Below are positions 24,274 to 26,679 of a DNA stretch of 64,000 nucleotides, piece by piece. The translations under genes were made by a program, and so were the position numbers. The notes under the pieces were generated by a model. That model searched no databases. It had not been told where the DNA came from and saw only the letters and a program-made list of their open reading frames with translations. The stretch's first letter is position 1; every line of letters starts with the position of its first letter. Source of the DNA: Comamonadaceae bacterium (GTDB lineage: Bacteria; Pseudomonadota; Gammaproteobacteria; Burkholderiales; Burkholderiaceae_C); NCBI GenBank assembly GCA_947448745.1, contig CANFOQ010000008.1, forward strand, positions 1 to 64,000, in the 5' to 3' direction.

Positions 24274-24298
24274 CCCTGCGCCTTGGTTAACATGGGGC

Positions 24299-25675
24299 AT
24301 GAACGACGCGCATTTCATGGGCTTGGCTTTGCAACAAGCCCACATCGCAAGCACAGAAGGCGAGGTGCCTGTTGGCGCTGTGGTGGTGTGCAATGGTGAA
24401 GTGGTGGCGCAAGCGCACAACGCCCCGATTGGACTGCACGACCCCAGCGCCCATGCTGAAATCTTGGCCTTGCGGGCGGCTGCTGAAACATTGGGCAATT
24501 ACAGGCTGGACGATTGCACCCTGTATGTGACCTTGGAGCCTTGCGCCATGTGCGCCGGGGCCTTGCTGAATGCGCGTTTGAAGCGTGTCGTGTGGGGTGC
24601 ACCAGAACCCAAAACAGGCGCGGCGGGTTCCGTTGTGAACTTGTTTGAATTCCCGCAACTCAACCACCACACAGCAAGCCACGGCGGGGTGATGGCAGAA
24701 GAGGCCAGCGCCTTGTTGCAAGATTTTTTCAAGACGCAGCGCCAGCATCACAAGCAAGATGCCGCCCGCACCCGCTTGCGGGAAGATGCCTTGCGCACCC
24801 CCGAACAGCGGTTTGAAAACCTGCCGGACTACCCCTGGACCGCGCAATACATCAGTGACTTGCCCAGCCTGCATGGTCTGCGCATGCACTACTTGGACGA
24901 GGGGCCGACTGATGCGTCCGTCACTTGGCTGTGTTTGCATGGCAACCCCGGATGGAGTTATCTCTATCGAAAAATGCTGCCGATCTTTTTGAAAGCGGGT
25001 CACCGTGTGGTGGCGCCCGATCTGCCCGGTTTTGGCAAGAGCGACAAGCCCAAAAAAGACAGCGCCCACCAGTTTGACTGGCACCGCCAGGTGTTGCTCG
25101 AATTCATTGAAGCGCTGGACTTGCAGCGTGTGCATCTGGTGGTGCAAGACTGGGGCGGTTTGCTGGGCCTGACCTTGCCGATGGCCGCGCCGCAGCGCTA
25201 CCAAGGCCTGCTGGTGATGAACACCACCTTGGCCACCGCTGAAAAGCCTTTGAGCCCCGGTTTTTTGGCGTGGCGACAGATGTGCGCTGACAAACCGCTG
25301 TTTGATGTTGGGCGTTTGCTCGGGCGCGGCAACCCGCAGATGAGCGACGAAGAATGCGCCGCTTACAACGCACCCTTTCCCGATGCTGGTCACCGCGCGG
25401 CCTTGCGGGCTTTTCCGGCCATGGTGCCTGAGTTTGAGGACAGCGAAGGCGCAGCCGTGTCGCGCCAAGCCGAAGCCTTTTGGCAACAGCAATGGACGGG
25501 TAAAAGCTTGATGGTGATTGGCCAGCAAGACCCGGTGTTGGGTGAGGAAGTGATGCGCGATTTGCATCGGCAAATTCGGGGTTGCCCAGCGCCGGTGCTG
25601 TTGCCGCAAGCGGGGCACTTCGTGCAAGAGCATGGCGTTGAAGTGGCGGCACTGGCGCTGCAACATTTGGCTTGA
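24299..25675 (+). CDS. tadA: Fusion: tRNA adenosine(34) deaminase TadA + haloalkane-dehalogenase-like hydrolase
   Basis: The 458-residue protein has two enzymes in one frame. Residues 1–150 are TadA, which deaminates A34 of tRNA-Arg(ACG) to inosine: zinc ligand His52 and catalytic Glu54 in AHAEI, zinc cysteines 82 and 85 in PCAMC. Residues 178–458 are an alpha/beta hydrolase closest to haloalkane dehalogenase subfamily I: oxyanion region HGNPGWSYLYRK, nucleophile Asp284 followed by Trp285 in VVQDWGG, second Trp325 in the cap, acid Asp411 in GQQDPVLG, and His440 in QAGHFVQEHG. The linker is about 30 charged residues. No stop, frameshift or internal ATG with ribosome-binding site separates the halves. 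Similar fusions may be common in Comamonadaceae. Confidence 0.88.
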   Translation: MNDAHFMGLALQQAHIASTEGEVPVGAVVVCNGEVVAQAHNAPIGLHDPSAHAEILALRAAAETLGNYRLDDCTLYVTLEPCAMCAGALLNARLKRVVWGAPEPKTGAAGSVVNLFEFPQLNHHTASHGGVMAEEASALLQDFFKTQRQHHKQDAARTRLREDALRTPEQRFENLPDYPWTAQYISDLPSLHGLRMHYLDEGPTDASVTWLCLHGNPGWSYLYRKMLPIFLKAGHRVVAPDLPGFGKSDKPKKDSAHQFDWHRQVLLEFIEALDLQRVHLVVQDWGGLLGLTLPMAAPQRYQGLLVMNTTLATAEKPLSPGFLAWRQMCADKPLFDVGRLLGRGNPQMSDEECAAYNAPFPDAGHRAALRAFPAMVPEFEDSEGAAVSRQAEAFWQQQWTGKSLMVIGQQDPVLGEEVMRDLHRQIRGCPAPVLLPQAGHFVQEHGVEVAALALQHLA

Positions 25676-25701
25676 ACGTGTCGGCCTCTGCTTGAACAAC
25701 A

Positions 25702-25733
25702 GGCGGGTCAGCCGACCAGCCCGCCGACTGACC
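25702..25733 (+). promoter_or_regulatory. Two mutually exclusive hairpins ahead of ldcA
   Basis: GGCGGG (25702–25707) can pair with CCCGCC (25720–25725), or GGTCAG (25706–25711) with CTGACC (25728–25733); the two stems share bases and exclude each other. They lie in the 83 bp between the tadA fusion and ldcA. No T-run follows, so this is not a standard terminator. It may be chance in GC-rich DNA. Confidence 0.3.
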
Positions 25734-25758
25734 GACAATGCCGCTTCAGAGAAAAAAC

Positions 25759-26679
25759 ATGCACATCTACATTTACTCCCCCTCCGGCGCACTGCGCGAC
25801 AAATCGGCCCTGAGCCTGGCCGTGAAACGCCTGCGCAAAATGGGCCACGACGTGGAACTCGACCCCGATGCCAAAACCTCAGATCAGCGTTTCGCCGGTG
25901 ACGATGACACGCGTTTGTTGGCCATCAGCCGCGCGGCCGCCAGTGGCGCGGACATCATCATGCCCACGCGTGGCGGCTACGGCCTGACACGCTTGCTGAA
26001 AAAACTCCCCTACAAGGCCATCGCCGCGTCCATCAAAGCGGGCAGCCAGTGGGTGGGGCACAGCGATTTCACGGCCTTGCAAATGGGCTTGCTGGCCAAA
26101 ACCAACGCCATCTCTTGGGCCGGCCCACACGCCGCCAGCGACTTCGGCGCGGCGCATTTGGATGAGATCACCTTGGCCTGTTTTGAGGACATGGCGCAGG
26201 GCAGGGGGGAGGGGGCCGGATGGCGTTTGCCCGCCTCAGACCTGGCGCACCTGCCCAAAAAAGCCCTGCTGGCTGAACACGCCACGCTGTGGGGCGGCAA
26301 CCTGAGCGTGCTGTGCAGCTTGGTCGGCACGCCCTACTTGCCTCAAGTGCAGGGCGGTGTGCTGTTTTTAGAAGATGTGGCTGAGCACCCTTACCGCATC
26401 GAACGCATGCTGACGCAGTTGTTGAATGCAGGCCTCTTGGCCCAGCAAAAAGCCATCGTCTTGGGTGCGTTCACCGACTTCAAATTGAGCCCGCACGACA
26501 AGGGTTACAACTTGAACAGCGTGGTGGCCTGGCTGCGTTCGCAGGTGAAAACGCCTGTGCTCACCGGCCTGCCGTTTGGGCATGTGCCTACCAAGCTGTG
26601 CCTGCCCGTGGGCCAAGAAGTGTCTTTGCTGCGCGAAGGCCGTGAAGCCTTTTTGCTGTGGGCCCACCACGCCCACTGA
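25759..26679 (+). CDS. ldcA: Muramoyltetrapeptide (L,D-) carboxypeptidase
   Basis: LdcA removes the terminal D-alanine from murein tetrapeptides in the cytoplasm during peptidoglycan recycling. The 306-residue peptidase S66 protein has the nucleophile Ser102 in VGHSDFTAL, the glutamate in LFLEDVAEHPYRIERML, and the histidine in FGHVPTKLCLPVG near the C-terminus. The ATG at 25759 gives MHIYIYSPSGAL, the family N-terminus; an upstream ATG at 25738 adds seven residues without support. No signal peptide, as expected for a cytoplasmic enzyme. Confidence 0.92.
   Translation: MHIYIYSPSGALRDKSALSLAVKRLRKMGHDVELDPDAKTSDQRFAGDDDTRLLAISRAAASGADIIMPTRGGYGLTRLLKKLPYKAIAASIKAGSQWVGHSDFTALQMGLLAKTNAISWAGPHAASDFGAAHLDEITLACFEDMAQGRGEGAGWRLPASDLAHLPKKALLAEHATLWGGNLSVLCSLVGTPYLPQVQGGVLFLEDVAEHPYRIERMLTQLLNAGLLAQQKAIVLGAFTDFKLSPHDKGYNLNSVVAWLRSQVKTPVLTGLPFGHVPTKLCLPVGQEVSLLREGREAFLLWAHHAH

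Follow-up and report, generated by a model that had tools for sequence, protein, structure and literature searches.

The tRNA-editing deaminase TadA is essential in E. coli. The TadA structures of E. coli (1z3a) and S. aureus (2b3j) share the entire deaminase domain, active site included, with the fusion protein described here, but the matched chains lack the C-terminal hydrolase part of the fusion, which comprises about 300-320 aa in intact fusions and 154-375 aa in incomplete ones. According to a study on ADAT2/ADAT3, the anticodon stem is contacted by a C-terminal KR-motif of ADAT2 that TadA does not have, and ADAT3 contributes a further RNA-binding domain at its N-terminus (PMC9643335). 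As is proposed here for the fusion, a wobble deaminase is there aided by non-catalytic, partly basic add-ons and by a pseudoenzyme partner; the pseudoenzyme of ADAT2/ADAT3 is described as a deaminase paralogue, whereas in the bacterial fusion it would be an unrelated hydrolase fold in the same chain (PMC9643335).

A second comparison is provided by Fusarium Ame1, a DUF726 protein of the alpha/beta-hydrolase superfamily, which, in the available text of its description, binds FgTad3 and is needed for mRNA editing (PMC11087585). The putative catalytic Ser and His of Ame1 are reported there to be dispensable for editing, while binding to Tad3 depends on the Asp, and the role suggested for Ame1 is to guide the deaminase to mRNA. 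Like the hydrolase of the fusion, Ame1 has a hydrolase fold and is the partner of a wobble deaminase, and its putative catalytic Ser and His can be dispensed with in editing. Unlike the fusion, it is, in that text, a separate eukaryotic protein of a different family in which the Ser-type triad is still present (PMC11087585). A search of the open-access literature found no paper on a TadA-haloalkane dehalogenase fusion.

Architecture and distribution of the tadA-hydrolase fusion

The window, the whole stretch of 64,000 nucleotides of a Comamonadaceae bacterium that was analysed, contains at 24299-25675 on the plus strand one reading frame that starts with ATG and runs through 458 codons with no internal stop (458 aa, stop codon included in the coordinates). 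The TadA domain (aa 1-158, 24299-24772) has complete zinc-deaminase motifs, HAE with H52 and E54 at 24452-24460 and PCxxC with C82 and C85 at 24542-24553. It is followed by a junction of ten residues (aa 159-168, RLREDALRTP, 24773-24802), in which R161, D163 and A164 are fusion-specific, and by a haloalkane-dehalogenase-like domain (aa 163-458, 24785-25672). Pfam placed a deaminase at aa 1-148 and an alpha/beta hydrolase at aa 211-451, and both halves passed curated NCBIfam cut-offs, namely the TadA equivalog NF008113 (aa 2-156, 189.2 bits, cut-off 150) and the haloalkane dehalogenase subfamily NF002043 (aa 163-456, 320.4 bits, cut-off 265). By sequence, the nearest solved structure of the N-terminal half was E. 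coli TadA (5e-45), and those of the C-terminal half were 2xt0 (1e-107) and DhlA (6e-91).

In a residue-level alignment with DhlA (1b6g) and 2xt0, the nucleophile D284 and the adjoining halide-binding W285 (25148-25153), the second halide-binding Trp W325 (25271-25273), the catalytic acid D411 (25529-25531) and the catalytic His H440 (25616-25618) all fell on the corresponding positions of the two enzymes. The roles of these five residues, and the DhlA numbering, follow the usual description of that enzyme; D124-W125 of DhlA can be counted on the alignment. The window protein shares the aligned pentad and the full length with both enzymes but differs from them in its fusion to TadA, in having Asn216 where both have Glu, and in the fusion-specific K252-K253 and R161-D163-A164. 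An earlier note, made from the DNA letters alone, had described one uninterrupted frame joining a complete TadA to a hydrolase, had placed Asp284, Trp285, Trp325, Asp411 and His440 at DhlA-like positions, and had assigned the hydrolase to subfamily I. The frame and the completeness of both parts were borne out by the 458-aa ATG frame and the two curated cut-offs, the numbering proved exact in the alignment, and the subfamily held for the window protein (aligned pentad, 320 against 265 bits). Judged by these motifs and profiles, the protein is confirmed as a complete TadA joined to a complete subfamily-I haloalkane-dehalogenase-like domain. An antisense ORF of 501 aa (24287-25792) was rejected as the real gene, since the plus-strand frame matches TadA and dehalogenases throughout.

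The gene's own genome (2.45 Mb, 67 contigs) contained no second full TadA, the next deaminase match being 38% over 101 aa, and its 67 contigs contained no second subfamily-I dehalogenase, the next hydrolase match being 30% over 190 aa. Its best match to tRNA-Arg(ACG) was a tRNA-Arg(CCG) gene (87%), and of 31 tRNA hits in these 67 contigs of 96% completeness, the 30 that were examined included no ACG anticodon. A tRNA-Arg(ACG) gene was present in five congeners, G080 and, at 100% identity, G381 (at a contig end), G323, G184 and G260; its absence from the window's genome is probably an assembly gap.

The fusion was common in Comamonadaceae-type Burkholderiales. In the same family, 383 of 399 genomes matched the window protein at 1e-20, many of them across both domains in one frame, and the 158 ORFs that we fetched (158 genomes, 68 genera) each had both the TadA and the hydrolase part. 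A pattern-based scan of named genomes, a set that overlaps in part with the unnamed one, gave at least 429 relatives, of which 80 loci were kept, three of them (L244, L260 and L264) cut by contig ends. Among the named genomes are Limnohabitans, Rhodoferax, Acidovorax, Hydrogenophaga, Polaromonas, Variovorax, Ramlibacter, Comamonas, Diaphorobacter and others. The two-domain architecture, which the earlier note had suggested looking for across Burkholderiales, was thus found in 158 sampled fusions of 68 genera and in all 80 named loci; chance and a sequencing or assembly artefact are rejected because TadA sequence lies upstream in the hydrolase frame in each of the 80. At a threshold of 1e-62, which may overlook fusions from other families if they are strongly shortened, 38 of 399 genomes matched in an order-level sample (10 from the window's family and four from family f3, all fused, and 24 covering the dehalogenase half only), as did 11 of 369 in a class sample and 26 of 398 in a phylum sample; in the latter two, the matches outside the window's family covered the dehalogenase half only.

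The gene immediately downstream in the window encodes a peptidase S66 (LD-carboxypeptidase, 25738-26679, plus strand). A peptidase S66 gene also followed tadA in seven of the eight loci examined in unfused relatives, and the order tadA-hydrolase-S66 was seen in 23 of 23 fused loci displayed, with a methyltransferase gene intervening in two (L187 and L191).

Repeated loss of the catalytic pentad

For the comparison of catalytic residues we aligned 158 fusions longer than 300 aa, picked from the better matches and not at random, in a sample that includes contig ends and possible MAG errors. The count leaves out eight ORFs shorter than 300 aa, of which seven were the size of TadA alone and one was L086 with its internal stop, and it does not include the frameshifted L145 among the fusions. 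A copy whose aligned pentad was other than DWWDH is here called incomplete, or dead. The TadA active-site residues H, E, C and C were present in all 158 fusions. The full hydrolase pentad was found in 66, with lengths of 447-477 aa, and at least one pentad member was missing in 92, with lengths of 331-535 aa. The earlier note had regarded loss of the Asp/His/Trp set in most homologues as telling against its reading; the set was incomplete in these 92 of 158 sampled fusions (one of which, L070, keeps Asp, Asp and His), which argues against a general dehalogenase role.

Among the incomplete copies, 73 were shorter than 447 aa and 19 were not. The shortened copies were typically without the nucleophile, the cap and the C-terminal catalytic part; the D284-W285 pair was gone in most relatives without the full pentad, and Asp284 was retained in six and His440 in eight of the 92. 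Two shortened copies, from Limnohabitans Jir61 (57.9 bits) and Variovorax ISL-79 (116.3 bits), both scored below the NF002043 cut-off of 265. Of 68 genera, 25 had intact copies throughout, 32 had none and 11 were mixed, among them the window's own genus with two intact and four incomplete copies. In a 158-row tree of the shared region (aa 2-275), parsimony gave at least 10 state changes, five of them forced by the best-supported branches. With loss treated as irreversible, a 223-row tree, from which L244, L260, L264 and identical rows had been removed, gave 14 losses, 12 when branches with support below 80 were collapsed and six when those below 95 were.

Full-length copies that had lost the pentad bear on the order of these losses. 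The motif QDWG was changed to HGWG in L178 and L074, and in L068, L184 and L075 (xGLN) as well as L185, all full-length, the nucleophile and Trp were replaced while the acid and His were present. Because such full-length intermediates keep the acid and His, they suggest that the nucleophile was often lost first. The order is not universal, since in five incomplete copies Asp284 was present without a complete acid/His pair. L070 lacked only the first Trp and may still be active, as Asp, Asp and His remain. Two records both named Acidovorax delafieldii, L223 and L236, differed in that one had an intact pentad and the other read GAWDH, both the nucleophile and its Trp having been substituted.

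In the view of the earlier note, a frameshift or stop that separates the two halves in close relatives would also tell against its reading; such cases were rare. L145 is a frameshifted copy, L086 has an in-frame stop inside the remnant, and in L288 (genome G157), from an otherwise fused genus, TadA ends right after aa 158, near a contig end, and the hydrolase is fully lost. A further candidate for domain loss, in G179, was rejected, as the locus stops after the junction without a stop codon and the hydrolase match is on another contig.

Selective constraint and fusion-specific residues in the remnant

In the hydrolase part of the incomplete copies, two blocks stayed conserved, an N-terminal hydrolase block (aa 161-276, 24779-25126) and the APFPDAGHRA block (aa 353-374, 25355-25420), both retained in relatives without the pentad, while the remaining hydrolase was lost or scrambled. 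In the 158-row set, 35 of 54 positions in the first block and six of 12 in the second that were at least 95% conserved in intact copies were still at least 75% conserved in incomplete ones; outside the kept blocks, the same filter retained 0 of 30 and 0 of 26 positions. R166, D241, G244, G246, S248, D249 and P251 were identical in all 92 incomplete copies. A set of 238 rows gave 42 of 68 positions in the kept blocks against one of 53 elsewhere (Fisher p 2.6e-13, a value that ignores relatedness), and these figures, like the 238-row ones behind the comparison with free dehalogenases and the net charges given below, include the 80 named loci. As the named loci were found with patterns containing GFGxSDKPK and R(D/E/Q)DALRTP, conservation of the pattern residues is quoted from the 158-row set.

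We estimated dN/dS by the Nei-Gojobori method in hand-picked pairs of near relatives (25 incomplete, 15 intact). In the incomplete pairs, in which regional medians of dS were 0.60-0.72, the median dN/dS was 0.14 for TadA (25 pairs), 0.20 for aa 161-276 (24 usable), 0.32 for aa 277-352 (25), 0.12 for aa 353-374 (25) and 0.28 for the rest of the C-terminus (17); single pairs can exceed 1 in the drifting region, as in L042-L043 (2.41). In the 15 intact pairs, the medians were 0.15 for TadA, 0.15 for aa 161-276, 0.16 for aa 277-352, 0.05 for aa 353-374 and 0.20 for the rest of the C-terminus. Low dN/dS and retained positions together indicate selection on the kept blocks at the protein level. Dead copies are not debris, since purifying selection acts in them on the junction, on the GFGxSDKPKK loop and on the APFPDxGH element.

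These results leave little room for the hydrolase being passive baggage on an essential gene, its remnant unselected. Such hitch-hiking is suggested by the essentiality of the gene in E. coli, by the repeated decay and by the drifting middle region, but we regard it as very improbable: dN/dS in the kept blocks is 0.12 to 0.20, residues are near-invariant across 6 to 14 independent losses, and although one stop codon placed at the junction would suffice to delete the hydrolase, such a loss was seen once in a fused genus (G157) in the material examined. The suggestion in the earlier note that the fusion is retained simply because TadA is essential fits poorly, as incomplete copies shrink and drift elsewhere, yet specific blocks remain under purifying selection.

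The same measurements bear on whether the protein is a classical bifunctional enzyme, in which a dehalogenase selected for its chemistry on a natural substrate merely shares a chain with TadA and the incomplete copies are heading for loss. The complete pentad in the window protein and in 66 of 158 fusions, the low dN/dS of the two C-terminal stretches (0.16 and 0.20 in 15 intact pairs), a sign of purifying selection, and the lack of another subfamily-I dehalogenase match in the window's genome agree with it. We nevertheless consider it quite unlikely as a general account, because the incomplete copies are old (one clade of 35 rows is entirely without the pentad, and dS is 0.60-0.72) and still have constrained blocks, and because genome G041 has an incomplete fused remnant (L311) beside an intact free dehalogenase (L058).

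When the fusions were compared with 22 subfamily-I dehalogenases of the same order that stand alone, residues that go with the fusion emerged. R161, D163 and A164 in the junction and G364-H365 were common to intact and incomplete fusions, and R161, D163, A164, K252, K253 and G364 were absent from most free dehalogenases. In the loop GFGKSDKPKK, the fusions have the basic pair K252-K253 (25052-25057), whereas in the free dehalogenases position 252 was varied and position 253 was mostly Asp or Glu. The basic-pair motif was carried by 65 of the 66 intact fusions and by 88 of the 92 incomplete ones, but by none of the 22 free dehalogenases. By residue, the incomplete copies had R161 in 88 of 92, D163 in 88 of 92, Lys or Arg at position 252 in 92 of 92 and at position 253 in 89 of 92, all near-fixed in the intact copies. 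Because intact and incomplete fusions both carry them, the fusion-specific changes most likely predate the pentad losses.

The remnant is also predicted to be folded. An AlphaFold2 model of the shortened Limnohabitans Jir61 protein (339 aa), built without templates from an alignment of 48 fusions lacking the complete pentad, had a mean pLDDT of 91.6 with regular strands and helices through the remnant, and a pTM of 0.59, so that the domain arrangement is uncertain; the same holds for the arrangement in the model of the window protein (mean pLDDT 91.5, pTM 0.71). In fold searches with the shortened-copy model, the top 50 matches listed were TadA and other deaminases, the best being TadA (E. coli 1z3a, S. 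aureus 2b3j; Z 27 over aa 1-155). For this reason, the fold of the remnant was judged by its predicted secondary structure and by the match of a profile of the 48 incomplete copies to DhlA residues 3-231 (8.5e-47). One shortened copy is thus predicted to fold confidently.

Many of the retained residues are ordinary dehalogenase motif residues, and part of the constraint on the kept blocks could therefore concern folding only. It is possible, though we would not call it probable, that folding is the whole explanation, i.e., that the fused TadA needs a folded hydrolase core for stability or solubility and the unneeded catalytic parts decay, leaving the core as a structural crutch without new function. 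An essential TadA partner, as in E. coli, the decay of catalytic parts, the highly folded remnant in the Jir61 model and the generic nature of many kept residues all fit such entrenchment. Plain folding, however, does not predict near-fixed, fusion-specific polar and basic residues such as R161, D163, K252 and K253; co-adapted TadA positions are not clear; and G157 tolerates complete removal of the hydrolase. Against 13 unfused TadAs, we found no clear case of TadA co-adaptation to the fusion: only G87 and C136 passed the fusion-specific filter, and the same state is common at both positions outside the family. With so little fusion-specific change in TadA, a dedicated TadA-hydrolase interface is not indicated.

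A candidate non-catalytic role and the origins of the fusions

Taking together the fusion, the repeated pentad loss, the selective retention and the one predicted fold, we favour, with somewhat better than even confidence, the reading that the hydrolase became a folded non-catalytic module of TadA that repeatedly lost its chemistry and is possibly still an enzyme in some lineages. Repeated loss of chemistry alongside fixed, constrained elements would look as observed if the domain has a second, non-catalytic role. The f3 fusions, whose dehalogenase comes from another source, and the precedent of fungal Ame1 also speak for this reading. In the sequence of events that we propose, a subfamily-I dehalogenase gene would have come to lie between tadA and the S66 peptidase gene, joined to the 3' end of the former, in an ancestor of Comamonadaceae-type Burkholderiales, and the hydrolase would early on have gained a second job as the folded C-terminal module of TadA, for which the junction together with the loop GFGxSDKPKK and the element APFPDxGH would be the part that matters. 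In window-type lineages the enzyme site is complete, and the protein is possibly, even probably, bifunctional. Many other lineages would have lost the chemistry independently, commonly with the nucleophile Asp substituted first and the cap and the C-terminus with its Asp and His lost thereafter, so that a minimal hydrolase core with the same module residues remained.

The module may act through TadA, most simply by touching a protein partner or a region of tRNA or other RNA outside the anticodon loop, and such contact would modulate the choice of adenosines for editing or its efficiency. A surface touching RNA or protein seems preferable to a TadA-internal interface, because the TadA active site is always kept and the conserved TadA positions are without clear fusion-specific change. 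That the hydrolase serves in RNA binding, as the earlier note had considered, fits in outline, but overall the domain lacks a basic character. The mean net charge of aa 164-276 was +0.1 in intact and -0.2 in incomplete copies, against -2.0 in free dehalogenases and +2.0 in f3. With a net charge near zero, the loop alone is basic and not the domain, and whole-domain electrostatic RNA binding is unsupported. Also counting against the module are the complete removal tolerated in G157, the stop in the remnant of L086, and the f3 fusions without K252 and K253. A more specific version, which we consider doubtful, is that the fused core serves TadA as a substrate-selecting subunit and uses the GFGxSDKPKK/APFPDxGH face to recruit RNAs beyond tRNA-Arg(ACG), i.e., other tRNAs or mRNAs, for A-to-I editing, and would be an independent bacterial counterpart of Ame1-Tad3.

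As a folded non-catalytic module, the hydrolase would represent an unrecognised determinant of TadA function. Across a single group of bacteria, and even inside one genus, the fusions form a natural series in which an enzyme domain has repeatedly lost its chemistry while a defined remnant is still selected, so that the transition from enzyme to structural or regulatory part becomes directly testable. The label "haloalkane dehalogenase" in these genomes may denote TadA extensions, and the fusions offer naturally extended scaffolds for TadA engineering.

The fusions do not share a single origin in their hydrolase part. The four fusions of family f3 (L267-L270) have an intact pentad, and their hydrolases branch among the free dehalogenases, retain a Met three residues before the Val of the LRTP motif and are without K252-K253. 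A tree for each domain, which the earlier note had proposed, gave different answers: one clade of f1 and f3 fused hydrolases was rejected (p-AU 0.0093), which also rejects a single origin of all fusions, whereas a common f1/f3 clade was compatible with the TadA tree (p-AU 0.323). Either fusion of the same two families happened twice, each time at one and the same position, or f3 swapped its hydrolase, a domain replacement that is compatible with these trees because the TadA tree does not reject the common clade. The f1 fused hydrolases formed one clade weakly (88/52); in a second tree this clade was broken by one change, yet it was not rejected (p-AU 0.476).

Three further cases were observed. 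In G041, the fused locus L311 has on TadA a very diverged hydrolase remnant that retains DALRTP, SDKPKK and PFPDRGH, and the intact free dehalogenase L058 lies elsewhere in the genome. In L299 (G402, family f5), TadA is in frame with a different C-terminal partner, a tyrosine-phosphatase-family domain (PF13350, 169 bits), and in L302 (G603, family f10) with what we take to be an acetyltransferase (GNAT) domain. The C-terminus of TadA seems to be prone to fusion.
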